DNA of 64,000 nucleotides from Tritrichomonas foetus (Eukaryota > Parabasalia > Tritrichomonadida > Tritrichomonadidae). This document shows, one piece after another, positions 4,491 through 36,600 of the stretch. The translations under genes were made by a program, and so were the position numbers. Position 1 is the stretch's first letter, and every line of letters starts with the position of its first letter. The DNA lies in contig MLAK01000760.1 in NCBI GenBank assembly GCA_001839685.1, positions 12,040-76,039 on the forward strand, in the 5' to 3' direction. The notes beneath the pieces are model-generated. The model was not told where the DNA came from. It was given only the letters and a program-made list of their open reading frames with translations, and did not search any database.

Positions 4491-6770
4491 TTATTCTGGA
4501 TAGATTTTGTCAAAAAGCTGTTCAAGTTCAACCCTTTTGGCTGTGATTGTTTCTACATCATTTGATTCTTCATTTTGTTTCAACCAGTTTCTTGCAGCAT
4601 CAATTTTCTTTCTTGCTTCATTATTTTGACTTTGTGCGAGCGGATTTTCTTTCAAAATTCTATCAAATTTATTAATAGAATAAGAAAGTTCAGCTTTTTC
4701 TGATGCTACTAAGCATTTCAAATCATCTTCAGCTTGGTTCCTTTCAGCATCATCAAGTAAACTTTGGATATCATTTTCAGATAGATTCGATTGTGAATAA
4801 ACGCTTGTTGTCATCGTTGCACCAGTTGCCAAATCAGTAGCATGAACGGCTAGAAAACCACTTTCATCGATTTCCATAACCACTTCAATTTTTGGTACAC
4901 AACGTTTTGCAACTTGAATTCCGTGAACTGTAACATGACCAAGTTTGATACAATCTTTAGCCATCTTTCTTTCACCTTGAACAATATCAAAAGCAACATT
5001 AGTTTGTCCATCGACTGATGTTGTTGCCATTGTTGTATATTTGGCTGGAAGTACTGTTCCATGTGGAATAATAATAGAGTTGACACCATTTGCTTGACTG
5101 ATACCAAGTGAAAGTGGTAAAGTATCTTTTAATTCAGCACCTTCTAATTCATCCGTTTTGATTTCTCCTTTCATTATGGCTCCTTGCATTGCAGCACCGA
5201 CTGAAACAGAACAGCCTTCATCAATATCATATAATTCTACATCAGGACCGAAAAATTCTTGAAGTTGTTCACGGATTTTTGGTATTTTTGAAGAACCACC
5301 AGCTAAAACAACTCTCTTTACTTGGTCAGGATCAATGATTCGATTTCCTTCTTCAAAAATCTTCTTAACTGGTTCAATTGCTCTTTCGAGGAGGTCTTGG
5401 CACCATTTTTCGAAATCTTCACGTTTGATTTCTTTACCACGTAAATAAGCAACATCGTTTTTAGAAAGTTCGATTTTAGTTTGTTCAGATTCACGTAAAA
5501 GTTTACTTTTTTCGCCATTTCTCTTCAAATTTTCTTTTTCTTCATCATCAGCAAGATTTTCTTCATAATATTGAGCCAATCTTGAGTCCAAGTCACGTCC
5601 TCCAAGGCTTAAATCACCTGCACTATTTAAAGTGGTGCAAATTCCACCTTCTAGACTGACGAGGGATGCATCAACCTTTCCACCACCCATATCGAATACA
5701 ACAAAATGTTTCTTCTCTTCACTCCTTGTATTTCCAATGGTGTTTAAAGCCATTGCAGATGCTGCTGTGTCACTTACAATCCGAATGACGTTGAACCCTG
5801 CAATTCGAGCGGCATCTTTGATTGCCTGTCGTTGGGAGTTAGGGAATAATGCAGGAACAGAAATAACTGCATCAATTACATCTTCATTGAATTCATCACT
5901 GACTGTCCTTTTGACTTTAAATAATAATAATGACATCAAATGTTCAAATGAATATTTCTCCCCTTCTTTATTTTCTGGATTATCTGATGGAATTGTGACA
6001 AATGGACGCTGTGACGCTGGATCTTGTTCAACCTTATATGGTAGATTTGAGCATACTTGGATTAAATCAGGATCAGTAAAATCTCTTCCAATGATTCTTT
6101 TGATATCATTAATTACAATGGCATCATCATCATCCAACACATCAGTTGACACTTCACCGACAAATCTACTTTCCCCTTGGAAGACTACTTGTGTTGGTAT
6201 AGCATTATTTTCTTCTTCTTGATCATCGTGCTCTTCAGAATTTCCTTTATAAACAGAGTATCTGCAATAGCAAGTACCGATGTCGATCCCGACAGCGTAT
6301 TTTGACTTCTTTGGCTCTTCAGGTTCTGATTCAGGCACCTTTGGTTTCCTTGGCTGGTTTCGGTCACGTTTTTCATATTTGAAATGAGGAGGCAAAGGTG
6401 GAAGATCACCATTATCTAATCTGACATTAATTATACGGAGAAGGTTATATGTTGGAACAAGCTCACCCCATAAAATGTCATCTCGTCGAACAAGGTTTTT
6501 CGAAATGATTCTGTAATTAATCAAATATCGAAGTGATATTTGAATTGCATGGCGTTTCTGGAAAACTGTTTGGTTTTGTTGCTGAGACATTGTCAGATCT
6601 TGTTGTGTGATATTTTCGATGATGTGGCCGATTTTTATTCCGTCTGTAAAATCTTTCAAAAAGTCAGTGACGCATTCTCCATTTGGTTCTAGTCGCTTAT
6701 TAGCCCAATCTATCGCTCTTTCTATGGGATCTCTGTCGTCTTCTTCTGATCTACAGCTGAGGCGAGACAT
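4491..6770 (-). CDS. CH-like domain fused to a divergent Hsp70 (CH-Hsp70)
   Basis: A 759-residue protein. Residues 15-118 match the calponin-homology pattern: helix A (AIDWANKRL), the FTDGIKIGHIIENIT core helix, the AIQISLRYLINYRI helix, and the final DILWGELVPTYNLLRIINVRL-type helix. A charged linker (about 125-157) joins this to a complete Hsp70: GIDIGT at 161, KRIIGRD at 224, VPALFPNSQRQAIKDAARIA near 305, DMGGGKVD at 360, VVLAGGSSKIPKIR near 488, SBD-beta about 551-650, and a helical lid to 759. Hsp70s bind and release clients through ATP cycling. Here Asp163, Lys224 and Asp360 are kept, but the phosphate-loop Thr is Lys365, the catalytic Glu is Asp334, and the linker reads ELKDTLPLSLG rather than the hydrophobic VLLLDVTPLSLG type. 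There is no EEVD or KDEL tail and no targeting peptide, so it is probably cytosolic. CH domains commonly bind actin or microtubules, suggesting a cytoskeleton-tethered chaperone; this is inference. It is divergent from the related gene at 7984. Confidence 0.92.
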   Translation of the reverse strand: MSRLSCRSEEDDRDPIERAIDWANKRLEPNGECVTDFLKDFTDGIKIGHIIENITQQDLTMSQQQNQTVFQKRHAIQISLRYLINYRIISKNLVRRDDILWGELVPTYNLLRIINVRLDNGDLPPLPPHFKYEKRDRNQPRKPKVPESEPEEPKKSKYAVGIDIGTCYCRYSVYKGNSEEHDDQEEENNAIPTQVVFQGESRFVGEVSTDVLDDDDAIVINDIKRIIGRDFTDPDLIQVCSNLPYKVEQDPASQRPFVTIPSDNPENKEGEKYSFEHLMSLLLFKVKRTVSDEFNEDVIDAVISVPALFPNSQRQAIKDAARIAGFNVIRIVSDTAASAMALNTIGNTRSEEKKHFVVFDMGGGKVDASLVSLEGGICTTLNSAGDLSLGGRDLDSRLAQYYEENLADDEEKENLKRNGEKSKLLRESEQTKIELSKNDVAYLRGKEIKREDFEKWCQDLLERAIEPVKKIFEEGNRIIDPDQVKRVVLAGGSSKIPKIREQLQEFFGPDVELYDIDEGCSVSVGAAMQGAIMKGEIKTDELEGAELKDTLPLSLGISQANGVNSIIIPHGTVLPAKYTTMATTSVDGQTNVAFDIVQGERKMAKDCIKLGHVTVHGIQVAKRCVPKIEVVMEIDESGFLAVHATDLATGATMTTSVYSQSNLSENDIQSLLDDAERNQAEDDLKCLVASEKAELSYSINKFDRILKENPLAQSQNNEARKKIDAARNWLKQNEESNDVETITAKRVELEQLFDKIYPE

Positions 6771-7983
6771 TTTGATTTAATTAACGTGTGTTTTCACTTT
6801 TGAACTTCACGAAATAAATTTATTTCATTAAAAAGTTTTGCAAACATCTTTCTCTATTCAATAAATGACTAAATAACTTATGAAAAAAAATGAAATTTGA
6901 TAGTGTGATAAATTTCAATGATGCTGACTGCAAACTGCGATCAGAGCTTCTCTGTTCAGAAAAACTTAGGCAACAAAAGTAGAAGCTGATAAAGACTATG
7001 GTTACAAATTTTAAGAACTGGTACATAACTATAATGATTGACTTTTTTTTTATTTGAAATAGTTCGACCAATTTCAATTAAAGGCATTTATACTGTAATG
7101 TTTTACAATAAAATTCATTATTTTTAATTTGATAACTCTTTCCAAAAAATGTGAAACTAAATAACAATATTTTTAAAGATAGAAATGATTGAAAATGTAT
7201 GGGGAAAAGGTCAATTTAATTCAACAGATTTGTAGAATGGGACGCCTTCACTTCGGATTTATAAAAAGAATTGAATTTTTGTACATTAATATTTGTTGAT
7301 GATGTGTCAACTGATAGACTTACTAAGTCAATGATATGCCAAAATTTACTTTATATTACATTATAAAATGCCTTTGGAAACCTTGAGGATAAAAATCAGA
7401 TTTCGATTTCAATTTTTTAACAAACTTTGAATATTTGATTGTATTGATTTATTTCCCATCGACTTAAAGACAAACATGTGATTCTGTGATATGAAAGAAC
7501 TTTCAACGAGATATGAAGTGTGATGTATTGATTATCAATTCAAATTAATTCCTTTTGTCATTGATATTCTATCAGAAAAATTTAGGAAATCACATCAAAA
7601 TTTGAATGAAAATAAACAGTGTATAGGTAAATTGATAGAAAACTTTTTATCTTCTTCTCGAACAAATTCCAAGGCATATGATTTATCCTGATCTGTTTTT
7701 GAAAAAAAGCAGAAAGAATAGTTGAGGTTCCCATTTTGAATGAAAATTATTCAAAACTTGTATCGTTTTCAATTACGGAAAAAAATCAATGAGAAACAGT
7801 TGAGGGATCAGAAATATAAAAAGCATCACATCAATTCAATTCAAAAAATAAGGCTAATTCATGACAAATGCCACAAATTTTGTATAGAAACAATGACAAA
7901 AAACTTTGAATCCTTTTTTTGTAATATGGATTTCTGATGACTTTCAATTTAAGGTTGATTTTCCGTTTTAAAACAAACATTAA
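6771..7983. other. Shared upstream region of the two divergent CH-Hsp70 genes
   Basis: A 1.2-kb AT-rich interval separating the start codons of two head-to-head paralogous genes, so both promoters must lie here. I could not find a clear TCAYW initiator close to either ATG, nor a heat-shock-element array (nGAAn repeats in alternating orientation). Short reading frames at 6820-7077 and 7740-7937 look like chance. Confidence 0.4.
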
Positions 7984-9918
7984 ATGAGTAAAAATGGATC
8001 ATCTTCGTCATCCGAAAAACAACAAGATCCAATTCAACGAGCTCTAGATTGGGCAAATTCACGACTTTCAGCATTCGAGGAAACTGCGACAGATATAACA
8101 ACAGATTTTACATCTGGACAATACTTTGTGACTTTAATTGAAGATATCACCCAAGAAGAACTTAAAATTACTTATAGAAACCCAAAAACTATATTCCAAA
8201 AAAGATTGACAATAGATGCTTGTTTAAAATATCTTGATAACTATCGTTTTATTACTCCAATACCAGTTAAAAGAGAAGATATTTTATGGGGTGAAACAAT
8301 TCCAACTTATAATCTTTTAAGAATGATTAACGTGAGATTAGATAATGGTGATCTTCCACCACTGCCTCATGATTTCCGTCCAAGACCTCCTTTAACTAGC
8401 CGAGTTCAAAAAGTGGAAAAAAGTCAACAAACAAACAAAGTAACATCAAAAAAATGTGTTGGAATTGATATTGGAACCTCACAAACCAAATATTCAATTT
8501 TTTCTCGAAATCATGTTAATAAATTCAACTCAGTTATATCAATTAGAGAAAACAAAAAGAAAATTGGTGGTATTTTGAAAGGAGCAGATCACATTGTACT
8601 TGATTTTAAACGTTTTATAGGAAGAGACTTTACTGATGATTCACTTGAAGATGAAACAAGAAAAATGAAAATATATGCAATTGAAGAAGATAGTACAAAC
8701 TTTAGACCAATTATTAAATTAGAAAATAACAAAACAGATTCAAGCAGCAACAAACAAATTAGCAATGCTAATAATTTGAGTAAATCAAAAAAATTAAATG
8801 ATTCAATTTTACATAGTTCGAAAAGTTCAAGTAATAATGTATCAGACAGAAATCAAAATGAAAATCACAATGATTATGATGAATCACAAAAAACGTTTAC
8901 ATTTGAACAAATGACGGCTTATTTATTTAATAAAATTAAAAAATCTATTTCTACAGAATCAGGTGATGATGTAAATGATGCAGTTTTATCAGTTCCTTCA
9001 TATTTTAGTATTTCACAAAGATATGCACTAAGAGATGCAGCTACAATCGCAGGTTTTAATGTAATAAGTGTAATTACAGAACCTGTTGCAACTGGAATAG
9101 CAACACGATTTATATCCAGTTCTGAGTTGAAATCTAAAAATTCGTCTAATCAGAATCCCAAACCGGGAACTTCTTCGAACTCGAAACATGGGAAATCAAC
9201 AATTTCACAACAAAAAATTTCCAATTCTAAGCCAACCACTTCGAATTCTAAGCCAACCACTTCAAATTCTAAGCCAACTACTTCAAATACTAAGCCGAAT
9301 ATTTCTTCGGGTTTGAAAACTAACAATAAATCCACAAATTCCAAACAAAGCGATTCATCAAGTAAACAAATAAAAAAGTCTAATCAAAACAATATTGTTA
9401 TTGTCGATGTTGGTGGTGGAAAAACAGAAGCTTCATTATTATTGATTGATAAAAATAATATTAAGCCGATAAGAAATGAATTTAATTCTAAGCTTGGTGG
9501 CAGCAATTTTGATCATGCTTTAGCTAAGAAATATTTTACATACAAAAATTCAAAGCCAGAAACCCCCCATGAAAAAATGCAAATCATTCTAGCAGCAGAG
9601 CATGCAAAAATTGCCTTATCTACCAAAAAGCAAACTAAAATAAAAGAAATGAATATTACAAAAGACGAATTCGAAGATTGCTGTGAAAATTTGATTAATG
9701 AAATAATTGATCCAATTAAAAGACTATTTAGTGATGACCCTAATAAAAAAAAAGATTTAAAAAAGTGGTTTTATCAGGAGGAACAACAAAAATACCAAAA
9801 GTTAAAGAAAAAATCGAAGATTTTTTTGGAAAAGGAATTGAGATTATTTTTTCTGGATTTGATGATGGAAATAATAGTTCTGTTGCCCTTGGAGCAGCAA
9901 TTCATGGAGCAATATTAA
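7984..9918 (+). CDS. CH-like domain plus first Hsp70 nucleotide-binding domain (5' part of a triple-Hsp70 gene)
   Basis: Starts at an ATG directly after an in-frame TAA. Residues 14-130 repeat the CH-like domain of the neighbouring minus-strand gene (ALDWANSRL, DILWGETIPTYNLLRMINVRL). An Hsp70 nucleotide-binding domain follows from about residue 156: GIDIGTSQTKYSIF, FKRFIGRDFTD, VPSYFSISQRYALRDAATIA, TEPVATGIA and VDVGGGKTEASLL. Two low-complexity insertions interrupt it, a Ser/Asn/Lys-rich one near 8735-8890 and a KPTTSNS repeat near 9220-9300. Homology stops at about 9765: the last ~50 codons of this frame are Lys-rich and unlike Hsp70, while the missing adenosine-binding motif (LSGGTTKIPKVKEKI) appears in the -1 frame. 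The stop at 9918 is therefore not the natural end. I treat this and the next entry as one gene. Confidence 0.85.
   Translation: MSKNGSSSSSEKQQDPIQRALDWANSRLSAFEETATDITTDFTSGQYFVTLIEDITQEELKITYRNPKTIFQKRLTIDACLKYLDNYRFITPIPVKREDILWGETIPTYNLLRMINVRLDNGDLPPLPHDFRPRPPLTSRVQKVEKSQQTNKVTSKKCVGIDIGTSQTKYSIFSRNHVNKFNSVISIRENKKKIGGILKGADHIVLDFKRFIGRDFTDDSLEDETRKMKIYAIEEDSTNFRPIIKLENNKTDSSSNKQISNANNLSKSKKLNDSILHSSKSSSNNVSDRNQNENHNDYDESQKTFTFEQMTAYLFNKIKKSISTESGDDVNDAVLSVPSYFSISQRYALRDAATIAGFNVISVITEPVATGIATRFISSSELKSKNSSNQNPKPGTSSNSKHGKSTISQQKISNSKPTTSNSKPTTSNSKPTTSNTKPNISSGLKTNNKSTNSKQSDSSSKQIKKSNQNNIVIVDVGGGKTEASLLLIDKNNIKPIRNEFNSKLGGSNFDHALAKKYFTYKNSKPETPHEKMQIILAAEHAKIALSTKKQTKIKEMNITKDEFEDCCENLINEIIDPIKRLFSDDPNKKKDLKKWFYQEEQQKYQKLKKKSKIFLEKELRLFFLDLMMEIIVLLPLEQQFMEQY
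9220..9300 (+). repeat. 21-bp tandem repeat coding KPTTSNS
   Basis: The 21-bp unit begins at 9226, 9247 and 9268, with a diverged fourth copy at 9289. It encodes Lys-Pro-Thr-Thr-Ser-Asn-Ser and sits as an insertion in the first Hsp70 nucleotide-binding domain, just before the phosphate-2 motif. It is probably a surface loop that expanded by replication slippage. Confidence 0.8.
9756..9765 (+). other. Putative -1 frameshift site TTTAAAAAAG
   Basis: In the upstream frame the codons read GAT TTA AAA AAG. This creates two overlapping slippery heptamers of the X_XXY_YYZ type, T_TTA_AAA (9756-9762) and A_AAA_AAG (9759-9765). A -1 slip here continues as GTG GTT TTA TCA GGA, which is the expected Hsp70 adenosine motif. 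The -1 frame is closed by a TAA at 9744-9746, so the change must occur after that. A run of nine A at 9745-9753 lies just upstream, and a single missing A there would give the same picture. A weak hairpin (9808-9815 with 9819-9826) is too far away to be a normal stimulator. Confidence 0.5.
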
Positions 9919-12900
9919 AAGGAGAAAGAAACGAAAAATTAAAAGGAATATCTTCTAATGAAACACTAAAAAATTCAATTGGCATTTTACAGCCGAAAGA
10001 AAATGTAGCAAGTCCAAGAAATTCAATCCGATCTACTAAGTCAACAAACTCTATTGGTTCTACAGGATCTATACGATATGTAAAATCATGTGATTCTATT
10101 GGACATTTTTCAAATAATAAAAAAGAAATACTGATTAATAAAGGATCTTCCCTTCCAATTAAAGCCAAAACAGAAATTAGCACCACTTATGATAATCAAA
10201 CTAGCCTTTCATTCAATGTTATAGAATGTGAAGATAATTCCCAAAATATTATTCAACTAGGCCAGGTCACAATTAGTGATATAGAACCCGCGAAAAAAGG
10301 AATTCCGAAAATTGATGTTCAAGTATCAATAGATGTGAATGGAAAAATTAACGTATCAGCAAAAGATATGACAAGTGGAAAAAAATTACCTACTAAGTAT
10401 GAATTGAGAATAAATTTAAATGAAAATGAAATCAATGAATATAAAGAAGAAATGGCGAATGAAAATGACATATGTGAAGAAGAAGAGGAAGAGGAAGGAG
10501 ATGAAGTTGGTGAACAACTTAATGATGAATTAATAGATACTGATGAAGAGAATGAACAAGAAACAAATGTTAAATCAAAAGAGATATTGGAAACCAATAT
10601 TGCAAATAAAAGTAGTACTAACCCCAGAACAAGTAACAATGTACTTTGTCCTGAAAAACACTTAAATATAAAAGAAACTCAATTAAACATACCAACGACA
10701 AACAAAGTAGAGAGGAATCAAGATAAGAAGGAAGATAAGGAATCAAAAGGAAAATCAAGTGATTCATTAGACGAATTATCAAATAAACCACCAAATTATG
10801 TCTCTAATAATATAAAAACAAGTGAACCACTAAATTCCTCAAGTATAAGTTCAAAAAGTCATGTGAAAAATGTATCAAATATGCAATCAAATGATATTAA
10901 CAATTTACCCAACAAGGTAAAAAATCAACCATTGAATGAAGCATCATTTAAATTAACAGATGATTCAATTGATAGATCAGAACAAAAAGCTAACAAGGAA
11001 ACTGAACAAAAGTTGAAACAATTAATTGATGAAAGAATGGGTAGCAAAAGAGAAAATAAACATGTTAGACCTGTTGTAGGAATAGACTTTGGCTCATCAA
11101 AATGCCATTATACAATATTTCAATCATCAAAAAAGAACAAAAATGGTGATAGCAGCAGCCCTAATATGGAAGAAAATATGGAAAATATAAAAAAATTTCC
11201 ATCATTAATTGGATTAAAAGGAGATAAAAGAATTATTGGAAATATTCCAAAGAATGTGAAAGAATCGAAAGATATAACAATTATTAAAGATATGAAACGG
11301 CTTCTTGGTCATTCATATCAAGATAAAGAAATTCAAAATCATCTTAAAGAGCTTCCATATTTCCTTAAAGAAGATCCACGCACACATCGTCCATTTGTTG
11401 AATATATGAATGAACAACATTCTTTTGAAGAAATGACAGGCTTTTTATTCTCGAAAATTCGAAAAGATGCCAACAGTAACATAGATAATGATGGTAACAA
11501 TAAATTTAATCCTAAGTCAGGCAGTAATCTGATTAAATTTGAAACTAGTTCAAGCTCAGAAGAAATCGTAATTGAAGATGCTGTCATTGCAGTTCCTTCT
11601 ATTTTCACTGATTCACAAAGGCGCTCAATCAAAAATTCTGCCCTAGCTGCTGGTTTCAAAAATGTATATTTAATCAACGAACCAACTGCTATTTCTCTCG
11701 CATTATGTAAAGCCAAGAAAGTTGCACTTAATAGTAATCCCAATGATGTTGAAAATAATTACGAAAAAACAAAATCCGAAAATGATCAAGAAAAATTTAT
11801 GATTATTGACTTTGGAGCAGGGAAAATAGAAGCATCAATCATAAAAAGTGATGGAAAAACAAGTGAAATAGTTGATAGTTGTGTAGATTTGAGTTTTGGA
11901 GGACAGGAATTTGATTCAAGATTAAGTTCAAAATATTTTGAACCAATCAATCAAAAAGAAATGACTCAAGAAGAAATTGAATATGAAATACGTCGACGAA
12001 ATGAAGCTAGTGAAGAAGCCAAAATTCAATTAAGTTCACAAGATAAAACTACTTTAAATGAACAAGAAATTACACAAGAAGAATTTGAACGAGAATGTCA
12101 AGATTTAATTGAACATTGTTTGAAACCTATTAAACAATTATTTCAAAATGGTCAACAAGATAAGAACGAACTTCAAAATATTATTTTGAAAGGTGGAATG
12201 TGTCAAATTCCACGAATTGAACAAGAAATTCGATCATATTTTGGATCATCTATCCCTATTATTAAGCCATCATTAAGTACATCCGATCAACTGATTAGTG
12301 AAGGTGCATCTATTCGAGGTTCACTTCTTAATGGAAATGATGATCCATTAATTAAAGACATAAATGTCATTGATCGTGTCAGCCATCCAATTGGAATTCG
12401 ACAAGCTAATGGACTAAACTCACTTCTATTTAAGACAGATAATTATATTCCGATTAAAAAGAAAACTTTTGCAACAACAAATGAAGATAATCAATCCAAT
12501 ATTTCATTTGATATTATTCAAGGCAACAGAAAAATGGCCGATGATTGTAAGCCTATAGGAACTATCAAAATAAATGATATTCCACCTTCGAAACGCTGTG
12601 AACCGAAAATTGAAGTATCTATGGGAATAGATGAAAATGGAATGTTTGTGATAGAAGCTAAAGATTTATCCACAAATAATACTTTACCAGCAGAACTTAT
12701 TTCGACCAATAATCTATGTGAAGAGGAAAAATTACAGATTAAGGAAAAGTTTGATCAAGAAGCAAATGGAATTCATACATCAAAGAAAGCTGTTGGTATT
12801 GATATTGGAACGTGCTCCTGTAGATATAGTATCTATTCTAAAGGTGTAAAGCATGGAACATCATTTCCTTCAACAGTTGCGTTCAAAGACGGTGTCAAAT

Positions 12901-14585
12901 ATGTTGGCGAAATTCCTCCAAATATTACCAATGATGATAATTCTGTAGTTATTTCTGATCTGAAAAGAATCATTGGAAGAGATTTTTCAGATAAAGAACT
13001 TGTAGAAAAAATAAAATTATTACCATATAATGTTGAAAAAGATAAAATCAATAATAGACCATTTATTACAATTAAAGAAGAAAAAATATCGCTTGAAAAG
13101 CTGACATCTATGCTTTTAACTGATGTCAAAAGAAGATTAACAACTGAAACTGGGAAAGAAATTGTAGATGCTGTGATAACTGTTCCTGCTTTCTTTCCAA
13201 ATTCGCAAAGACAGGCAATTCGTGATGCTGCGCGTATTGCTGGTTTTAATGTTATTCGAATGGTCAATGAAACTGCTGCAACAGCTATGGCATATAATAT
13301 GCAACAGGACAACAATTTTGCAAACTGTGACATTTTGAATAATATTCAAAACACCTTGAATGAAAGTTCTAATAATTCAATTACAAAATCCAAGTCTAAA
13401 AATGTTGTTGTGTATGATATGGGAGGTGGAAAAGTTGATACATCTCTCATCAATTTAGATGGTGGTGTTTGTACTACATTAAATAGTGCCGGCAATATGA
13501 ATCTAGGAGGAAGAGATTTGGATTATAGAGTAGCTCTCCACTATATTACTGATGGAAAGAAACTTGGTGATAAAGAAATGCGAAAATGTTTAATTGATGC
13601 AGAAAAAATCAAAATATCACTAAGTGATCAAGCAAGCACATCAATCAATAGAAAAACTATCACGCGTAAAGAGTTTGAAGAAACATGTGAAGATTTATTA
13701 GAAAAAACTGTAGATCCTGTTAAGGAATTGTTTGTAGGAGCTCCAGTAACAAAAGATAAAGTTGATTGTGTTATTTTAACAGGAGGATCAACAAAAATAC
13801 CAAAAATCAGAGAGTTAATACGAAAATTCTTTGGAAATAATGTAGATTTTGTTGAATTGCACGAAGGTGATCATGTTGCATATGGTGCTTCAATTCAAGG
13901 TGCTATTATGGAAGGAAATCTATCTAATGAGCTTGATGGTGTTGAAATGAGAGACTCATTGCTTCTTTCGATTGGTATTAGTCAAGCCAATGGAATTAAT
14001 GCTATTATTATTCCACATGGAACAGTTCTTCCAGCAAGTTACACAATTATGACAACAACATATATTGATGGACAAACGAATGTATCATTTGATATAGTTC
14101 AAGGTGAGCGAAAAATGGCAGCAGATTGTATAAAACTTGGTCACGTTACTGTAGAAGGCATTCAAGTTGCAAAACGATGTGTACCTAAAATAGAAGTCTC
14201 CATGAAAATCGATGAAGATGGTTTTCTTTCGGTTAAAGCTAAAGATTTAACTACAGGTGCTTCGATGACAACACATGTTTATTCTTCTTCAAATTTGAAT
14301 GAGGCTGAAATTCAGACAATGCTTGAAGAAGCAGAAACAATGAAAGAAGAAGATAAACGTAAGATAGCAATTGCTGAAGAAAAGGGTGAGCTTGCATATG
14401 CATTAGATAAATTAGAAAGAGTTATACGTGAAGCTAAATTAACTAAAACTGAACGTTTGGAAGCTAAAAAGAAAGTATCTGACTGCAGGGAATGGATGAA
14501 TGAAAATGATGATGCTGATCCGTCATTATATAACATGAAGCGTAGTTTAATGAATGATTTGTATAATATGATTATGTCTAAATAA
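9765..14585 (+). CDS. Remainder of triple-Hsp70 protein: end of NBD1, SBD1, and two further complete Hsp70 modules
   Basis: Continues the previous entry in the -1 frame, without its own credible start; the GTG at 9765 is within the homology. First come the adenosine motif and SBD of module 1 (to about 10440), then an acidic Ser/Asn-rich linker (10441-11060). Module 2 has VVGIDFGSSKCHYTIF near 11075, MKRLLGH, INEPTAISLA, IDFGAGKIEASI and ILKGGMCQIPRIEQE, then an SBD to about 12715. Module 3 starts near 12784 (AVGIDIGTCSCRYSIY, LKRIIGRDFSD, VNETAATAMAY, YDMGGGKVDTS, ILTGGSTKIPKIRE) and ends with SBD and lid helices. Module 3 is closest to the single Hsp70 at 4491-6770, even in SBD wording (GISQANGINAIIIPHGTVLP), while modules 1 and 2 are more diverged. 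This suggests internal duplication from a single-module ancestor. There is no EEVD tail. The joined product is about 2,200 residues, against about 640 for a normal Hsp70. It probably acts as a multivalent chaperone or scaffold. Confidence 0.88.
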   Translation: MVLSGGTTKIPKVKEKIEDFFGKGIEIIFSGFDDGNNSSVALGAAIHGAILKGERNEKLKGISSNETLKNSIGILQPKENVASPRNSIRSTKSTNSIGSTGSIRYVKSCDSIGHFSNNKKEILINKGSSLPIKAKTEISTTYDNQTSLSFNVIECEDNSQNIIQLGQVTISDIEPAKKGIPKIDVQVSIDVNGKINVSAKDMTSGKKLPTKYELRINLNENEINEYKEEMANENDICEEEEEEEGDEVGEQLNDELIDTDEENEQETNVKSKEILETNIANKSSTNPRTSNNVLCPEKHLNIKETQLNIPTTNKVERNQDKKEDKESKGKSSDSLDELSNKPPNYVSNNIKTSEPLNSSSISSKSHVKNVSNMQSNDINNLPNKVKNQPLNEASFKLTDDSIDRSEQKANKETEQKLKQLIDERMGSKRENKHVRPVVGIDFGSSKCHYTIFQSSKKNKNGDSSSPNMEENMENIKKFPSLIGLKGDKRIIGNIPKNVKESKDITIIKDMKRLLGHSYQDKEIQNHLKELPYFLKEDPRTHRPFVEYMNEQHSFEEMTGFLFSKIRKDANSNIDNDGNNKFNPKSGSNLIKFETSSSSEEIVIEDAVIAVPSIFTDSQRRSIKNSALAAGFKNVYLINEPTAISLALCKAKKVALNSNPNDVENNYEKTKSENDQEKFMIIDFGAGKIEASIIKSDGKTSEIVDSCVDLSFGGQEFDSRLSSKYFEPINQKEMTQEEIEYEIRRRNEASEEAKIQLSSQDKTTLNEQEITQEEFERECQDLIEHCLKPIKQLFQNGQQDKNELQNIILKGGMCQIPRIEQEIRSYFGSSIPIIKPSLSTSDQLISEGASIRGSLLNGNDDPLIKDINVIDRVSHPIGIRQANGLNSLLFKTDNYIPIKKKTFATTNEDNQSNISFDIIQGNRKMADDCKPIGTIKINDIPPSKRCEPKIEVSMGIDENGMFVIEAKDLSTNNTLPAELISTNNLCEEEKLQIKEKFDQEANGIHTSKKAVGIDIGTCSCRYSIYSKGVKHGTSFPSTVAFKDGVKYVGEIPPNITNDDNSVVISDLKRIIGRDFSDKELVEKIKLLPYNVEKDKINNRPFITIKEEKISLEKLTSMLLTDVKRRLTTETGKEIVDAVITVPAFFPNSQRQAIRDAARIAGFNVIRMVNETAATAMAYNMQQDNNFANCDILNNIQNTLNESSNNSITKSKSKNVVVYDMGGGKVDTSLINLDGGVCTTLNSAGNMNLGGRDLDYRVALHYITDGKKLGDKEMRKCLIDAEKIKISLSDQASTSINRKTITRKEFEETCEDLLEKTVDPVKELFVGAPVTKDKVDCVILTGGSTKIPKIRELIRKFFGNNVDFVELHEGDHVAYGASIQGAIMEGNLSNELDGVEMRDSLLLSIGISQANGINAIIIPHGTVLPASYTIMTTTYIDGQTNVSFDIVQGERKMAADCIKLGHVTVEGIQVAKRCVPKIEVSMKIDEDGFLSVKAKDLTTGASMTTHVYSSSNLNEAEIQTMLEEAETMKEEDKRKIAIAEEKGELAYALDKLERVIREAKLTKTERLEAKKKVSDCREWMNENDDADPSLYNMKRSLMNDLYNMIMSK

Positions 14586-24662: not shown

Positions 24663-27600
24663 TTACACTTGAACAGTAATGAATACAGCAACACTTCGTT
24701 GTATCCAATGATCAGGTAATATTCTCGCACATGGAAGATAGAGTGACATAATATAATTTGGTAATCCTAAAGCTCCACTTCCACGATTTTGTGTTCTATA
24801 TAATGGACATTCAAAAGTTACATCCATATTATATGGATTTTGCTCACTTGTTGGCAGCAGATGCATCACTGGCATCGTTGAAATCAATTCTGTTTGTCCA
24901 CATTCTACAAGCGAATTTTGAACTTTATCCCACTTCGCTCCTTCAAGGAATAAATTTTCGACATATATTCCTTCTTCTGGTTCTTTCGTTAAATCTTCAT
25001 TATTAACAACATTTGTCACCCAACGAAGTGAATCAAATGGTGTTTGATGCTTTCTTGCATATACTTGTAAAACAGCAGTCAAAAATTCTTCTGGATGATA
25101 AAAAGCACCTAATTTGAAAACAGTTGGACGTTTGTTTCGAACCCATTCATCCAAAAACGCAACACGATGACAAAGATCATCCATATACGCACGAAGCGTC
25201 AAAATTGATGGGAAACTATGCTCTAGCCACATTTCTGGAATCTTATTCGCAAGTAATCTTCGATTTAGGAGATCAAGTTTTTGATCAATTAGGATTAAAC
25301 CTTTCAAACCTTTTTCCATTGTTTCTAAGGAATCTTTAATAACGCCAAGTAAGTTATTAAATAATAATATTTCATGATGTAAAACAGTATTAATGGTATC
25401 AGTGATGTCAAATTTCTTTAAGAAAGTATGAATATTGAATTGTTGTGGAACTTGTTCAAGGAGACTTTGAACAAGATTCAAAGCAAATTGTTCTTCACTA
25501 ATTGAACCAGAAGCAGCAACAAGTGTTGGCTGAATTTCAACAAGGGAGTTGAAAATATTTAATGCATCATTTCTCGCTGTAATTGTTGAAGCATTTGCTG
25601 AAAGACCAACATCTTCACCTTCAGTGACAATTGGCCAAGTAGAAACAATATGTTCAACTTCAGTTAAGTCCATTAAAGGCGTGGGTGGATTATAATTTTT
25701 ACCAAATGAGAAATCTTTAGACTTAATTGAAGCAGAAAAGAATCGTCGAAGTAAAGAAAGGAGTAATCTTCGATCCCATCGATCTGTAACACGACCACCA
25801 TAGTTAAGCTCGCCAATAACATAAGTTAAGGCTTCAAATGGAATAACACCATTGGTATCCTCACTTAAGAATTGCTTCAGATGTTTTCTAGAAATTGCAA
25901 AGTCACTTGGATTGAATTCATATGGAATGTTCCATCCAATTGATCCAAAATGAAGTCTCTCAAGTACAACAGCATGGAAAAATGCTAGATGGAATGTTAA
26001 TTGACGTTCAACATCACTAATTTCTTCGTATTCCTCAGATGTCATTCCTGTATAGATTCTAAGAATGTTTTCTCGAATACCTTTAGGAATTTCATAAATT
26101 AGCTTGGTTCCTTGATATAGGATACCAATTGGAAATTCAGGCGAACTCATTGTCACTAAGCATAAACGGAAACGTGAATTTGTTTTTTCAGGATCAAGGT
26201 TATCAATAATATGTTCCAGTTTTGGCATCCATGATAAGGAAAGATGACAATTTTGAAGCAATACCCAAAATCCTTGTTCTGCTGCTGCATCAATTAATTC
26301 TTCGGCACCTTGACCTCGACCTCTACCTAATGAATAGCTTTTCAGATATTTTTCAAGATCCATTGATGCTGCAACGTTAATGATTTCATCTTGTGGATCA
26401 ATACCAGGTGTAATAATGAAAATTAGCGGTGCTAGTGGCGAAGAATCCTTGAAAATCTTACTTAAGTTTAATGGTGGTGGTGCTACAAATTCTTTTCCAA
26501 GTGATTCTGTTACAAATATACGAAGACCTTCACGAACACGGTGCAAATGAAAGACTCTAAGAATAATAAGCTTCTGAAAAGAAGTTAGATGCTTATCAAG
26601 TGGGATTTTCTCAGTTTCTGGAGTTGTTGAAGCGAAATATTTCTTCCATTCTTTTTCATTTTGTGCAATAGAAGAAACAATATCTTTGAATTTAGGTGAA
26701 ACACTTGGAAGTTGGTGAATCAGTGACCAAATATCATCAGGAAGCCAATTGGTTGGATTTTTCTCCTTAGATGGTGTTGGTGATAAAATATAAGCTAATT
26801 CAGAAGTAGAAACTTTCTTTTCGGTTAAAAGGATTCGTATTGCCATCAATGTTGAAAACAATAGTTTATGTCTTGAAAATAGAGAAAATGAAACGTTTTG
26901 ATAGAATTGTCTTGCTATTGCAATATGAAATGCAGCAATTAATTGATCAGGGTCATTTGGATGCTCACTTTGTTGAATTGCTAACTTAAACAGGTTAACA
27001 AACCATTTCAAAGAAAATTGATACATTGGATCAACAACAGAAAAATCTGATGCACAGAAATATAACAATGCAGCACGTTCAGCAACAGGTAAAAATCTTT
27101 CTCTAAATTGAGAAATTTGACGTTCAGTTTTCTCTGAAGCTGCCATTTGTTGTTCAATGTTGGCAGACGTTTTCTGTGCTTTTTGTAGAGTTTCAATAGC
27201 AGTATCATCTTCAAGAATATCGCTTCCTGCATTTGAAACAATTTGTAAAATTTCATCTTCAACTTCTTTAAGTTTCTTAATGTTTGCAGCATTTGTTTCC
27301 ATGATTTGAATTCTCTTCTTATCGAGATCATCTCTTTCAACTTCAATTAGATTGTTCATCAGCAAATCACTCAATCCTTCTTGGGTTGTTGTGAAGTTGA
27401 TTAATATAACTTGAGAACAAACTTCTGGTGAATAATGCGGATTTGGATATTTGGTTGATAAATACATCCTGAAACTATCTGAATATTGAACATATTCACC
27501 ACCTAAAGCTATTTTCTTTTGACCATCAACAAGAATTGTTTCTCTTGATAAAATAGGTTCAATGAGCGGATCAAGTTTCAAGCCGACATTTTCAATTAGA

Positions 27601-30600
27601 ACTGGAACGCCAAATGCAACTGCACTCTTGATTCTTTGAAGAAAGTCTGATTGGTCAAATCTCAAAACAACCAACTTTTCTCCAACTTCACTTCTCAACC
27701 ATTTGGTTCCACTGAGTTGTGGATCAATTAGTAATGGGAAAGCATTTTCTGATGAATGAATAACTAATGCGTTTTCTACTGAATGAGTATCATTCGGTAA
27801 TCCTTTAACAATCCATTCACGAATCATTGGATCAGTTCCAAGGGCCTGGGAAATATTGAAGTTTGCTGTATGCTGGATTTTTTCCAGGTATAGATAGTTC
27901 TTCCACTCACTGATTAATTTTGATCTAAAAGGCGGTGAAAATGCACCAAGATGTGTTAAAGCACCACTAATTAAAAGAGCATCACCCATAATATAAACAG
28001 ATGATTCTTTCAAGTTTGTTGCACATTCACCCCAACGTTTCGTTTCTCCACTAAGTCCAGACATAATTTTCTGTGCACGAGTTAAGCGCAGTTGAGTAAT
28101 CGCGACATTATCAGACAATTCTTTTTCGTGTGCTTTTTCTTCGTTGAACTTATCTTCAAGTTGTTTCATCTGATCTTCGACTTGTTGAAGATGAGCTTTT
28201 CTGTCAGCCAAAATTCTTTCACTTTCCGCTAATTTTGCTGCCGCTTGCTCTGCTTCAATTTTCTTTGGTAAAATTTCTTGATAAACATGCCAATAGTCAT
28301 AAGATGCGCAAACCCATAGATAAAGATTGGCCACAGCAGAGTAACCCCCTTGAACAGCTGCTAGCTTTTGATCTCTTTCTTGTTTATTAGCGCCAACATA
28401 TTTCTTAAGTTTATCAATCGTTTGCTTAGTCATTTTTTCAACTTCATAGTTCTTAACTTTTTTAATGAATCCAATATCATTAAGTAATGACAATGTTTCA
28501 GGCCAATAATCATCTTCTTTTACTCCAGGAGTTCCAGAATCAACTTTCCTTGGTGATTTATTGAATATAATACAAATTGCTTCAAATGTTGATCTTAATG
28601 CAGGATGGATACTTTTCAGAGTCTTAATGTTAACTAGTGAATTTCTATCCATTGAATCAACAGCTTCTTGCGCCTGAATAAGAATTGGTTGAGCCTCTGC
28701 TAATTTTTCTTGAGCAATTCTATTTGTTTCACCTGCTGCTCTTGCTTCTTCTTCTGCAACCTCACTTTGAGCCTTAACTTCTGCTCGAGTTTTTTCCACT
28801 TCTCCTCGTTTTACATCAAGTTCTTTTAGCATTTCTTCTACCTCTTCCCTTTTTTCTTGCAGCATTGGAATGTCTCTATCTAGTTGATCAGATAAAAGTT
28901 GAATTTGAGCACGAGTTGTTGTGATTTTTTCAACACCACCAACATATTTTGTTACTGATTCTTCTGTTTGCTTTTGCTGATTTTCAAGTTTTCGTACAAA
29001 AGTTGCAAGCAATTCAAAATATCGTGAAGGAGTGCAAGCAGTAAATCGTTTTGTTTCTGCTAAAAATTGCTTTGCAGCTTCTTCAACGGATTTATGGATT
29101 TGAACGCATACTTTAACAACAGATGTGATAAGTTCATCACTTCCAATCTTAGCTTTCTTTAGTGAAGCCTGAGCAACACTTTCTAATGCATCTCTTGACC
29201 ATGGCATATACCAATCGATTGTTGTTTCAGTTCTAAGTGATGGGAATGCAAGCATTGATTCTTTAAATGCAGAACCAAATGGGGAAAAGACCAAAATGAT
29301 ATGTAAATGTTTTTTAACACGAGACATGAAAAGATCCCATGGATCTTCATCTGTTAATAGTTCATTTTGGATCAGATCTGCTTTGATTTGCTCAATTTCA
29401 TCTCGTTCAAAAAGATTTGGAATTTCACCATTTATCATTAAATTAGAAATGTCTTCAAGTTGGAAATTTCCTACAATTTGAACATCACTGATAATGAAGC
29501 CAGTTGGTAAATCATTTAAACCGCATTGCTTCATTAAATTTTTCATATCTTCACGCCATTCTGTAAGGTTATATGTTCTGGTAATTTGGATTTCAAATGT
29601 TTCCATTGAAGCCATATGTAATGATAGTCTAGCTAAAGACTTCCTTCCACTAGATTTGACACCAACAAGAAGTGCATGTCCTCTTTTCATTGCAAGAACC
29701 CTTGAAAGAACTGATAAGTGATCAACAGCTTCTTGGAAAAGAACTATATCTAATGGCTTAGGAGCATCTCTATTATGATCTTCTAAAACATCGCAACATA
29801 CCTTAAGAACTTCTGAATCAGCTAAGAAACACTCCTTATAAACACCTGATCTGTCGGCATAGTCGTTGAAGTTAGGAGTTGGAAAATTAGATGATTTATG
29901 GAATTTAACAGGAATTGTCTTTTTGAGAGTATCCTCAAACCATTGACGATCCTGGGTTTGGTTAAATCTGTCATTAAATTCGCGCATCATTTCATGATAC
30001 CAAAGTCTGATAAATTGATCTGAATCCTTGATATCTTTTGGATCTACGAGCATAATTCCTTTAATAACACGAACAATGTTTCTCAGTGAGAAAATATAGT
30101 GAAGCTTTGAAGGAATAGGTAAAAGCTGCTGTAAACAACTTTGTAGAATACTAAATGAAGCTTTGGCTGTATTTGGGATCATTTCTTTGATATCATTTTT
30201 ATGTCGGTCAAGAGTTAGTTTCAAAAGTGATCCAATAATCGAGACTAATGTTTCCTCATGGAATTTTGGCATATGCATATAGTTAAAGTGGCGTAACAAT
30301 CTCTCAGGAATTGAGAATAAGCCAGCACCAGGTGGTCCCATAGCAGCAATCAATGTGGTTCCAACGATATGTTGGAATTCAACATTTGCCGTATTGTACC
30401 AACCTCCATAATCACAGAATTGTCGAATTAGTTCTAATGGAGGTTGTGCTCCATAAATTTCTGGTTTTACTGAGCCAATATTATCAAGAAAGATCACTAA
30501 ATGTTGATTGGTCAAAGGTCCAAATGAACCATGACTTTTATGAAGAAATGATCGAAATACTTTAAGAATATTTGCAGCTGTAGAGCAATTAGCAAACGGC

Positions 30601-33600
30601 AAATTTTTACAATCATATGATTTATCAAGAACATTTTCCATTAAAGTTTTAACAACAAGAGTTTTAGAGGATTCAGGTCCATGAAATAGAACATGCTGAG
30701 AATTATGAATTAATAATCGAGAATAGAAAATCATTGCAGCTGTTTCATTTGTTGGTACAAGAATTTGTTCAATGGGCTTATTAGAGGTGATTTCAATACC
30801 AGTTTCACCTTCACACCATTCATGCCATTTATGACTTGAAAGATCAAAGAAATAATCGTATACGGTGTTTTTGGTTGGGAATGGATTCTTGCATTGACAT
30901 TTATCAATTAAATCTCTCATGAATTTATCAAATAAAAATCGTGAATCATCAACTAAAACACTTCCAAAACTCCAAACCATGCAAAATAGAAGAATAGGTT
31001 CGAAAATAGTTTCGATATCATCTTCGTTAATATAGCCGAATTCTTTCTTTTGCTTGACAAATGGAGAATAAAACAATTCATGTTTTAATGGATCAATATC
31101 TTTGGCATCTTCTCCATCCATTGCTGGTTTATGAACTGGTTCTCTTAGGATTTCAAAGAAGCAATCTAATAATTTCATCATGTTTCTCAACACAAATGTA
31201 GAATTGTGTCCGAGTGCTGGTTTACCATCAACATCAATAAATTGAATCATTTGCGGTACGTACTTATCAAATAAAATGCGTATAAATTTGGCAATTTTTT
31301 CGTGGTCTTTGTGAATATTGTACCAGGAATCAGCTAACGCTGTCCATGGAAGTGTTGTTGGATCAAAATAAATCATACCACATCTTGAGACTGTAGCTGG
31401 TGAAGCTTGACTAAGGTCATCAACTTCGAACATCATTTTTACATGACTTCCAAGGGAAATACGTTCATTGTTTGAAAGACAAAGTACTTTGTTATCATCC
31501 AAAAGACTGTTCATTGTTTCAATCCAGAGTGAATCAACAGGCCCATCAACAATAATCCATTTAAATTCTGTTGGGTCACTTGCAGAACAATCACGAATGA
31601 AACTCGATAAAACACCATCGCTCCATCCTGATGTGACAGGATCGAACAAACCATAAAGTTCTGGAATAGATATTGATTTAGGATTCATTGTTTCTACATG
31701 AACTCCCATTCCTTCCTTTTCTTCTTCAGCCAATGTAGTCATTGCCATTTGAAGGCATTTCCAGCTTGTAGATTTTCCACCCATTGCACCACCAACAAAC
31801 ATAATTCCATGTCTAACAACAGCGGTTTCTTTAACTTCATTGCACTTTAATAAGTACTGTTGAAGTGGTTGAACATTAAAGTGATCAAAGGCTCTAAGCA
31901 TATGTTTATGAAGAAGTTCACTAATATCTTTCTTATATACAACATCTGGGAAAACATCATGAATAATTCCATCAAATAATGGAACATCAACAGATACCAA
32001 GCGTGGTCTTGTACAATCGGTAATTGATTGAACTAGTAAAAGTGCTTCAACTTCTTCTAAATGTGCCCTCTTAAGTTTTCCAGCAGTTGATAAAATTGCT
32101 TTCATGGCTCTGAGACCCCAATCATAATGATGAGCATTACTCAATTGCTTTCGGCAGAGATCAAACAATGCTACAAGTTTCACAGACAAAACTGATGCAC
32201 TTGTAAAACCACCTGAGAAAAGCATAATTTCGGCAATGAATCCAAAATCTGGAACCATCATCGCGCATGGTCTGAAAAGTGATTTCAAGTTATCTGGAAG
32301 TTCTGTACGTCCTGCATAACCAGGGTTCATAGTGATACAAATAGCAGCGTTTACATTTAATTTTAGTGTTCTTTCATCAAGTTGAAATGTATCTGCATTT
32401 GCAGCAATAGCAGTTTGAATACTTCGAACTTGCTGAGCAATAACTGAAAGAACTTCAATATTAATTCTGTTAAACTCATCGAAGCAACTCCAAGAACCAG
32501 ATGATGACAATCCAGCAAAGAATTGTGACATTTGCTCTGGAGTAACTTCTTCAGAGCAGTTATAAACGATGCATGATCTGCCCAATGCTTTTGCACAATC
32601 TCTAACAGTTTCAGTTTTTCCTGTTCCTGCGGGGCCACTTGGTGCACCGCTCAAATTTTGTTTAAATGCAGCAAGGAGTGTTTGATAGCATCTATCCGTA
32701 AGTGGTGTAATAACAAGTCTTGCAGAGTTACCAGCATATTCATAACTATATTCATATACATTGTTAATTGATTTAACAATAACAGTATCTTCTTCCCAAT
32801 AATAACGAAGTTGCATTTGCCATTTAAATGCATCAACATCACTGACATCATCTTTAATCAAAGAATTAATGATATCTCTATTATGAACTTCATTAATAAG
32901 TAAACAAGAAATAACTTGGCGAATGGAAAGTGATAAAGGTTGCCTAATTTGAGCTGTTAATTGTTCTAAATTCTCAATGAACTTCTTCTGAAGATTAACT
33001 AGTACTCGTGCACCTGGAGTACGAAGTGCACTGGTTACTTGTTGTGTCCAGATGATTTGATTGGAAATTAAAATAATTTGTGCTGGAAATTCTGCAATCC
33101 AAGCCTCTCTTTTCTTCTTTGTAGATGCAGGAAGAGCTTCTCGGATTTTTTCTTTTAAAGTATTTTTCATTTCTTCTTCAAATGAATTTAACCAATCTTC
33201 AATTTCTTCAGTTTTTCCATCAACATAATTCACTAACTCTACTTTTTCAAGACCATCGTCATTCATTGATGTAATCATAGTATCATCATCTACATCAATT
33301 GATACAATATATTCGAAAAGTTTCTGCATTGATTTTTGAATATGGTTGAAATCTTTTGTATGAGAAAGAATAGAGATAAGTTCATCATTTGATAAGAAGA
33401 AGAATCTTGGAAATCCAAGTCTTTTTGCTTCAAGATATTGATTAAGTCCTTGGGTGATCGATTCAAGTAAAACATTTGATTGCTGAAGATCTTCAAGTAA
33501 GTGGTCACGATGCATTACATTAACAAAGTCTGGATGATTATGGGTAAGTGTCATTATTGCTGTCCACATTTTATCAACAGTATTCCAATCTCGTGCTTCC

Positions 33601-36600
33601 CTATGCAATTTTTGCTGGATTGATGTGCCAGTAAAAATAGGTTGTAAATAAAGCCATCCGCGTTGGCATTCAACCCACGCATCAAGTGTATCATGGCAAT
33701 GACGAAGGAAAGTAAGACGCTCAGTTGCCCTCTTTTTAACTGGTGCAATAAAAGGTGATGTTAATAAAGTTTGTGTTGTCACAAGTTGGTCATCGATAAT
33801 GGATATTAAATCATCAATATGTATTAAGATATATTGTTTAGTTTCTCTGAATTCTGATGTTTGGAATTGTTGTGTTTGAAGTTCTGTATCCATTTGATCA
33901 AGTGATGATTCAATATTATATTCACTTGCGGCAACACTTGCAATTTCTGAAATTTGATCATTCCATCTTTCAAGATTGAGATCTAAAAAGTTTTGAAGGG
34001 TTAAATCCAGTGAGGGGATAATTTTGAAGCCAACAATTTCACTAATTTTTTCCCAATGCTTAGTTTTGATACCTGGATGCCTTAGTTTCGAAATAAGTGG
34101 AATATGTTGTTTAAATTTATCAATTTGTTCACATAGTGGATTTAGAACTTTATCAATTAAGTTTGGATAGGGTAAAAGATCCTTTTTAAGTTTAGAAATC
34201 TTTTTACTTGATTGGATCATAAAAGTATTCATTGCGTCAGGTTTAATTTGTGGAAATGGGGTATCAAGCCAATTTGTATTCATTCCAAGCCAATCTGCAG
34301 AAAGATTCCAGAGAAGATGAAGTGGCATGAATTCCTCAATTAATTTTGATAAAGTTTTTGATGGCTCTGGTTCGAATGAAAAAAGTTTTTCATGATAGCT
34401 ATAAAGATCTTGTTTTTCTCTGATTTTTTGAAGCTGTAATTGCATTTCATTTACATTTTCAGCTGCGTCAATTGTCATTTCTAAATCTTGATATTTCTGA
34501 ACAATTTGTGGAATTGATGCAGTTATCATTCTGATTTCGTCTTCAACTGCTCTCTGGTTATTTCTAAGGTCTTTAATCATCTTAACTTTCTCAGTTTCTA
34601 ATGTTCGATTTGTTGATTCTAAATTTAATAATAATTTTCCTGGTCTTTGAAGTGATTCAAACTTATATTTACATTCATCATCAGAAATTTCAAATTTATA
34701 TTCTTCTAAAAATTCAAATCTTTTAACTGCAAAATTCATTTTAGACTCTCGAACATTGGATGTATCAACAACTTTTTGTATATATTTTCTCATTACATCC
34801 ATTTCTTCTGGTGTTTTTGGAATCTTTTTAATTTCGTCGTCAATATTTTGAAAATCAATCTCAAGTTCTTTCAATTCAGAAATAGCGAAGTCTTTCATTC
34901 TTGTTAATAAGTTAGTAATTAAAAGACGAGTATGAGTACTCCATGTATTAATAAATTGTTCACAATGAACCTGAAATGCTTCGATATTATAGAAAAGATT
35001 AGTATGGTTTTGAACAACATCAAGAACTCTTTCAAATTCGGTTAATTTATCTTTATATTCTTGAAGTGTTTTATCGCCTTTTTCATCAAATTCACTTGGA
35101 TATTTTTCTGAGTTTAATCCAAGAACATATTCTAAATGTCTTCTATCATCCAAAAATTGATTCAAATAGCTATAAAGGGTGTTCAATGTGACAATAAGTT
35201 TTTCAGTTCCAATATGAATGATATCATTACAATCATCAAATGGAACAGTGTTTGTTTCAATGTCAATAACTGGCAAATTAACAGCTGGCAAATCGTCTAA
35301 TGTTGCTTCTAAAAGTGTCAATAAAGATAAAACATTTTCATTAAAAACTTGAATTGATGGAATTAAATCTAATTTCTTTTCGTCTTCAGAAAAAGTCAAT
35401 TCAAGCGTAAATTGGGGAACTAAAAATATTTTTCCTTCTTCTATTAAAAAATGATCAAATAGACGTAAATAATTATTCACTGTATTATCTACAATTGTTA
35501 AAAGAACGGTATGAAGCATTCTAGAAGTTAAATTTACCATTTTTTGATATTTGATATGGTTTTTTTCTTGTTCTTCAGTTGTTAATTCACACATTGTTGA
35601 TGAAATCACACTTTCTAAAGTTTCTTGAATGGTTCCTTTAAAAATTTTTGCTGTTTCAATTAATTGAGTTTTTTGTCGTTGAATAAAATCATCTAAAGCT
35701 AATAATTCATGAGAATATCCATCAGTCAAAAAAGTTTCTGTTAACGAATCTTGAAAAACTTTCCAAATCGAAGTTAGTCCACCTAAAATATTGGAATTCG
35801 CAACAAGACCCATTTCAGAAATTCGATTTACTTGTTTATGAAAATTATAATTGACTTTACAAACTAAACCATATTTTGGAATCGGTTTTGGCGGTGGAAT
35901 TAAAGCCAAAAAATCATCTCTATTGGGAATGAGTGGATTCAATTGTAATTCATAAATAAATTCTAACTTATTATTCATAAACTTAAATAAATCAGCGGCT
36001 TCTTTGAAAGTTTGTTCTTTCAATTTTCGATATTTTTTAATCCTTGGCATGTGATGCGGAGGGACTTTGGCCATTTTTGGATGTTCAATTGTGTATAAAT
36101 CAATTGTTGGTAATCCTTCTAGTGGCATAAGTGACACTCGATGATCAAACCTGAATTGTGTAATAAATTTCACTCTTGCTGCTTGAGCTGCGGCTAAGCG
36201 TTTTTCAAACATTGCTTCATTTTCACATAAAAAACGAATATTAAAGCGAGCAACTTGTTTAGTTTTTTGCGTGTCAAGCCATTTAATCGAAAATAATTCA
36301 TTATCTGTATTATAATCCAACACATCACATTTCTTCCATATTTTATCGCCTGATGTCAATTGGTACCTTGAAACAGCTTTTGGGTTTTTCATTAATTCAT
36401 CAATTGTAAATTCTTCGTATGTTAAATCATCAAAAACTTCTAATGGTAAAAATGGTGGATCAACATCATCTTTTGTTTCGAAATCAGAAATATTAGTGTC
36501 AACATTTTCCTGATTTTCAATAATGTGTTGAATTTCATTTTCATTTTTCAGAGGTGGAAGTGGCTCAGATGGATGCCTATATTTTGATCTTATTATTTGA

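Follow-up and report, generated by a model that had tools for sequence, protein, structure and literature searches.

A conserved Hsp70 variant with a putative actin-type CH domain in Tritrichomonas foetus

Introduction

Hsp70 chaperones are ordinarily brought to their sites by separate J-proteins and adaptors. CH domains bind actin or microtubules or act as scaffolds for signalling proteins, and actin binding is not universal among single CH domains. One related system unites a CH-bearing protein with an Hsp70 within a flagellar complex. HSP70A sits with CPC1 in the flagellar C1b projection (PMC9113940). In a Tetrahymena study, a CH domain is predicted at the N-terminus of Spef2A, the amount of an Hsp70 drops in cilia deficient in C1b, and Spef2A-BirA* biotinylated no HSP70 (PMC8175508). 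In Trichomonas vaginalis, eleven tvhsp70 genes have been described, and we found no CH fusion among them in the available part of that paper (PMC4693282).

Here we analyze a 64,000-nucleotide stretch of contig MLAK01000760.1 from Tritrichomonas foetus (the window, which lies on contig C370 in our scans of the 63.7 Mb genome). The initial annotation of the window proposed a divergent pair of CH-Hsp70 fusion genes, and knew of no earlier description of the architecture. We likewise found no paper on such a fusion at the level of titles and abstracts, with subscription journals mostly outside the scope, but database records containing both domains do exist. The subfamily record TRFO_07700 did not occur in the papers searched, and the available parts of two papers on the costa and the cyst (PMC12428144 and PMC13332039) contain no mention of these proteins.

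Results

Gene A (4491 to 6770, minus strand) consists of a single 759-aa open frame, in which a CH domain is joined through a disordered linker to an Hsp70 of full length. The CH domain (about residues 14-120; 6411 to 6731, minus strand) matched PF00307 at residues 17-82 with 27.1 bits (Pfam cut-off 26), and plectin CH1 in a single-sequence search of the PDB, with an E value of 1.1e-5. The Hsp70 part (residues 159-756; 4503 to 6296, minus strand) comprises the nucleotide-binding domain, the substrate-binding beta domain and the helical lid, and matched PF00012 with 408 bits over model positions 1-593 of 599 (cut-off 20.6). The AlphaFold (AF2) model, with a mean pLDDT of 82.9, displays a CH domain, a linker of low confidence (residues 132-151) and then the secondary-structure pattern of an entire Hsp70, in which the substrate domain and lid are predicted in full. 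The helices of the CH domain lie between residues 15 and 118, in blocks with a pLDDT of 80-94 and one block at 66.

Gene B starts at 7984 on the plus strand, head to head with gene A across an intergenic region of 1,213 bp (6771 to 7983), so the two are indeed a divergent pair. Its first open frame (7984 to 9918, plus strand) encodes 644 aa, namely a CH domain (about residues 15-120; 8026 to 8343) and most of a first Hsp70 unit, D1 (8455 to 10461, end approximate), which carries low-complexity insertions and whose last part, beginning at about 9756, is read in the -1 frame. This frame matched PF00012 with 125 bits, and PF00307 with 17.2 bits, under the cut-off. Although its Pfam score is low, the gene B CH sequence matched the CH1 structures of Entamoeba alpha-actinin and filamin in the PDB with E values of about 4e-4 (best 4.3e-4). 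Further, the AF2 model of the domain (mean pLDDT 79.7, with 64 of its 147 residues reaching at least 90) had as its top Foldseek match the alpha-actinin CH1 bound to F-actin (3lue_K), with a TM score of 0.88 by target, an rmsd of 1.3 and an E value of 4.8e-5. Taken together, the Pfam searches, the PDB sequence profile described below and the structure predictions support the identification of both N-terminal domains as CH. The motifs quoted in the initial annotation do open both proteins and run in the same frame into Hsp70, with PF00307 above its cut-off in gene A and below it in gene B, and PF00012 above its cut-off in both.

The second open frame of gene B (10368 to 14585, plus strand; 1405 aa from its first ATG) contains the end of D1, followed by an acidic and low-complexity stretch. 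Beyond this come two more Hsp70 units, D2 (11073 to 12770, end approximate; motif GAGKIE) and D3 (12789 to 14585; motif GGGKVD), and the frame matched PF00012 with 629 bits in two stretches. Of the gene B units, D3 is the best conserved, being 55.9% identical to gene A over 572 aa; the identities at the three codon positions are 65/80/48%, a pattern that indicates coding constraint. Provided that it is one gene, gene B is therefore arranged as CH-Hsp70-(acidic stretch)-Hsp70-Hsp70. Neither these later units nor the frame shift described next figured in the initial annotation.

The first frame stops at 9918, following a -1 shift in an A-rich place near 9745-9765 (plus strand), and the Hsp70 carries on in the other frame (VVLSGGTTKIPK...). 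Given this shift, the full-length chain is a putative product. We consider that the frame change is probably a sequencing or assembly error, the likeliest of three readings. Decay of gene B into a pseudogene, with a true lesion at 9745-9765 that leaves gene A and the unlinked copies as the working genes, would fit a shift inside an Hsp70 unit as well as the fast evolution and low-complexity insertions of D1. Yet the part of D1 after the shift retains codon-position identities of 55/70/42% with gene A and 54/73/38% with D3, which may reflect past constraint only, and D2 and D3 remain open through 14585. We regard such decay as unlikely. Programmed -1 frameshifting is the least likely of the three and in our opinion improbable: a native A_AAA_AAG heptamer does lie at the shift place (9759-9765), and a count over 19 ORFs with 16,615 codons gave 8 such heptamers including this one, but the place is A-rich and the RNA 3' of the heptamer folds no better than shuffled sequences (z 0.4 to 1.0).

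Regarding the neighbors of the pair in the window (an ankyrin protein, kinases, a GH3 enzyme and a dynein heavy chain), no functional link to it was found. The dynein heavy chain occupies 24663-37028 as one open frame of 4121 aa. We also noticed a 516-aa protein at 46588-48138, which matched HSP70 weakly (18 bits against a cut-off of 20.6) and had an alpha/beta hydrolase-like match that was weak as well.

Profile scans of the genome contigs gave at least 45 matches to PF00307 and at least 64 to PF00012, the latter counted by stretch, so that one gene may contribute several. Many of these HSP70 matches lie in divergent frames of 650-950 aa. When the N-terminal 150 residues of gene A were searched against the genome, five loci were found at E values of 1.2e-10 or below, and all five have an Hsp70 in the same frame: genes A and B, C537 (1236 aa), C206 (811 aa) and C723 (1414 aa, with 78 unread residues in the linker). 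The next three matches (E values of 0.08 or above) fell on contigs where the genome scan had found no HSP70. Beyond this genome, proteins with both CH and Hsp70 were found as P0001 and P0004 (ENA), P0006 (T. musculus) and P0007 (lgn). Recurrence of the architecture at three other loci and in four outside proteins implies that the fusion is not a chance one. The linker between the modules varies from about 26 to 624 aa.

Some members are already in databases, under various names (SSA3, Hsp70 chaperone, DnaK and hypothetical). C206 is identical over all 811 aa to P0003, the T. foetus 'Heat shock protein SSA3', and residues 123-1236 of C537 are identical over all 1114 aa to P0008, which is TRFO_07700. 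These two identities assign the analyzed genome to T. foetus. Relative to the C537 open frame, the TRFO_07700 model begins 122 residues after the first Met, which shows an annotation gap: one public model lacks the CH domain held by its putative longer open frame.

A further Hsp70 array was found on contig C239 (L050 and L051, 73791-87300), with at least six units including partial ones: one unit, a 2.5 kb assembly gap of N, then four units and a partial one in one open frame. Neither the PF00307 scan nor the search with the gene A N-terminus found a CH domain on this contig. There is no in-frame ATG ahead of the first unit; directly upstream, in the same frame, is a 597-aa frame that is coiled-coil-like by eye and is ended by TAG. 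The picture is thus larger than the "pair" of the initial annotation, with five CH-Hsp70 loci and an Hsp70 array.

We then built an Hsp70 tree of 35 rows, including 17 subfamily units and 18 others (8 from this genome and 10 from the protein search). The 17 units were separated from the others with 100/100 support on a long branch of 0.91, and support was still 100/100 after four long or odd rows were removed; these units have a common ancestry. Among the 17 is P0009, a 650-aa Hsp70 from a JGI contig, with a GAGK loop and no CH seen; its contig of 1,987 bases is barely longer than the ORF, and the 5' end may be cut. Trees of the CH and Hsp70 modules concur on the pairs C537/P0006 and C206/P0004, suggesting that the two modules probably descended together. 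The CH tree also places A, B and P0001 together with weak support (80/84 and 85/84). In the Hsp70 tree, B-D1, the unit adjoining the CH domain of gene B, groups with fast inner units (96/90) and not with gene A, while the last units B-D3 and C239-D6 group near gene A. The end branch of B-D1 is 1.45, and those of A, B-D3 and C239-D6 are short (0.26-0.45). C723 has a long branch. The position of B-D1, together with the long branch and retained T199 of C723 (see below) and the presence of P0009 in the clade, counts against the reading preferred below.

No CH-Hsp70 was found outside Tritrichomonas and the ENA and lgn records in protein searches, including the best 120 of 2,726 matches from the 8,000 candidates with most shared words, which were the ones scored. 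So far, the subfamily has been seen with a named host in Tritrichomonas only, and its absence elsewhere, for example in T. vaginalis, is suggested.

To characterize the type of CH domain, PF00307 scores and a joint profile were considered. PF00307 exceeded 26 bits in eight of the nine CH-Hsp70 proteins, with gene A at the score given above, P0001, P0003, P0004, P0006, P0007, C537 and C723 at 27.6-43.3 bits, and gene B below. The profile of the nine CH domains matched, in the PDB, Entamoeba alpha-actinin (E 9.5e-15), plectin (3.7e-14) and filamin A (4.8e-14). The best 34 of 56 rows were alpha-actinin, plectin, filamin or MACF1, all matched at the first CH (E 9.5e-15 to 6e-10), followed by dystrophin, spectrin, utrophin, parvin and navigator. 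By sequence profile and predicted fold, the CH domain of the fusions thus appears nearest the CH1 of actin-binding domains, ahead of CH2, calponin CH and flagellar CH. These E values, together with the F-actin-bound alpha-actinin CH1 as top Foldseek match, point to anchoring on actin.

Two observations count against actin. Among the 50 Foldseek rows listed for gene B, nine were parvin CH2 and one was neuron navigator 2, and the helix-G Trp of plectin CH1 is replaced by Arg in all nine CH-Hsp70s. Filamin B W148R (title of PDB 2wa6) was rejected as a parallel to this Arg, as W148 is a CH2 residue. The CH domain may instead anchor Hsp70 to microtubule, flagellar, costa or axostyle structures or to a protein partner, and the same parvin and navigator matches and the helix-G Arg speak for this. 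So do the precedents of HSP70A in the C1b arm with CPC1 (PMC9113940), and of the predicted N-terminal CH of Tetrahymena Spef2A and the Hsp70 reduced in C1b-deficient cilia (PMC8175508). On the other hand, the lone sperm-flagellar row of the profile search had an E value of 1e-3, against 1e-14 for actin CH1, and the adenylate kinase domain, a trait of SPEF2/CPC1, was found by Pfam in none of the nine CH-Hsp70 proteins (in C723, residues 1-577 only). In Tetrahymena, likewise, no HSP70 figured among the proteins biotinylated by Spef2A-BirA* (PMC8175508). We consider non-actin anchoring an unlikely alternative. Of the tethering to "the cytoskeleton or flagellar apparatus" proposed initially, the cytoskeletal half is a reasonable inference and the flagellar half is not favored.

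The Hsp70 part displays recurrent changes in the nucleotide loop, the interdomain linker and the substrate pocket. Residues are given by DnaK labels (D8, T12, K70, E171, D194, T199, D201 and F426), which follow E. coli numbering, and motifs were compared with ten other Hsp70s of this genome, drawn from the PF00012 matches above. At the position of T199, an autophosphorylation site needed for the DnaK ATPase, 11 of the 12 subfamily units aligned carry K (in gene A, K365 of 'DMGGGK', codon at 5676 to 5678, minus strand) and C723 carries T; five units of C239 likewise have K in the nucleotide-loop motif. T199 is kept in nine of the ten comparators. The exception, L020 (contig C350), is a paralogue that groups with the cytosolic-type Hsp70s; its loop, DLGSYKLN, is degenerate with K, and it has no EEVD. 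T12 is retained in only 4 of 12 units, E171 is D in two (A and P0001), and D201 is E in two (B-D1 and B-D2). In the interdomain linker (VLLLD type), all 11 units that reach this far have E, Q, S, A or N at position 2, and nine of them have K, H or R at position 4 (V in C206 and I in B-D2), whereas both are hydrophobic in nine of the ten comparators. Substrate-pocket F426 is replaced by A, S or T in each of the 11 units covered, as against F in nine of ten comparators. EEVD was not present at any subfamily C-terminus tabulated, but in three of ten comparators.

These changes make a plain chaperone role uncertain, and the loss of T199, T12, F426 and EEVD and the polar linker may abolish the normal chaperone cycle. 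Possibly, then, the Hsp70 part lacks an ATP-driven cycle and acts as a structural or scaffold module, with the arrays as spacer-like repeats. The fast inner units, such as B-D1 with its long end branch, would agree with this, as would the scores of 349-442 bits (348.6, 441.6, 396.5 and 348.8) of all four proteins scanned with the DnaK equivalog NF001413 (cut-off 648), a prokaryote model run without an ordinary eukaryotic Hsp70 control. However, D8, K70, D194, G196 and G198 are conserved in all 12 aligned units, the branches of A, B-D3 and C239-D6 are short, and the substrate domain and lid of gene A are predicted to be complete. A pure scaffold is rather doubtful in our judgment.

Discussion

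Our preferred reading is that genes A and B belong to an Hsp70 subfamily in which a single actin-type, CH1-like domain is fused through a variable linker and holds the chaperone on actin, and we give this about even chances. In favor of the subfamily is the same-frame fusion at five loci and in P0001, P0004, P0006 and P0007. We propose that the CH domain would tether the fused chaperone to actin filaments or to a structure associated with actin, where the Hsp70 part may still bind nucleotide and client with an altered cycle and work locally on cytoskeletal proteins. Linker length might determine its reach, and the repeated Hsp70 units of gene B and the C239 array might increase local binding capacity. 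A bolder version, namely a new cytoskeletal chaperone class in tritrichomonads with actin-anchored Hsp70s, some of them multi-unit arrays, and a loop Lys for Thr, perhaps a slow force-bearing holding machine and in gene B perhaps made via programmed -1 frameshifting, seems to us quite improbable. The CH-Hsp70s are, by their sequences, a real and conserved form of Hsp70 that carries a CH domain of the actin type. They are best viewed as a tethered subfamily, most likely actin-bound, whose nucleotide cycle is putatively modified; their binding to actin, and likewise their ATPase and chaperone activities, are here inferred.

A lineage with an actin-type targeting domain hard-wired to Hsp70, tandem units and an altered loop amounts to a natural experiment on local cytoskeletal chaperoning. 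The subfamily also probes how far an Hsp70 switch can change, and exposes a gap in public annotation, where one model (TRFO_07700) starts past the CH domain of its open frame.

Compared with known systems, the CH1 of alpha-actinin, plectin and filamin shares its sequence profile and predicted fold with the CH domain of the fusions, whereas the fusions have a single CH without CH2, Arg for the helix-G Trp of plectin, and an attached Hsp70. As in Hsp70, DnaK and Hsc70 (PF00012), the subfamily has a complete nucleotide-binding domain, substrate-binding beta domain and lid, with Pfam scores far above the cut-off; it differs in its N-terminal CH domain, a GGGK loop in most members, a more polar interdomain linker, tandem units, the loss of F426 and EEVD, and its separate 100/100 clade among the 35 rows. 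P0003 'SSA3', P0008 (TRFO_07700) and the T. musculus 'Hsp70 chaperone' P0006 are database members of the same subfamily, but their records are labelled as plain Hsp70 or hypothetical. Lastly, CPC1/SPEF2 and HSP70A of C1b resemble the CH-Hsp70s in that a CH-bearing protein meets an Hsp70 within a single cytoskeletal complex. There, however, they are separate proteins on a microtubule, whereas CH-Hsp70 is one polypeptide with a putative actin-type CH domain and no adenylate kinase domain.
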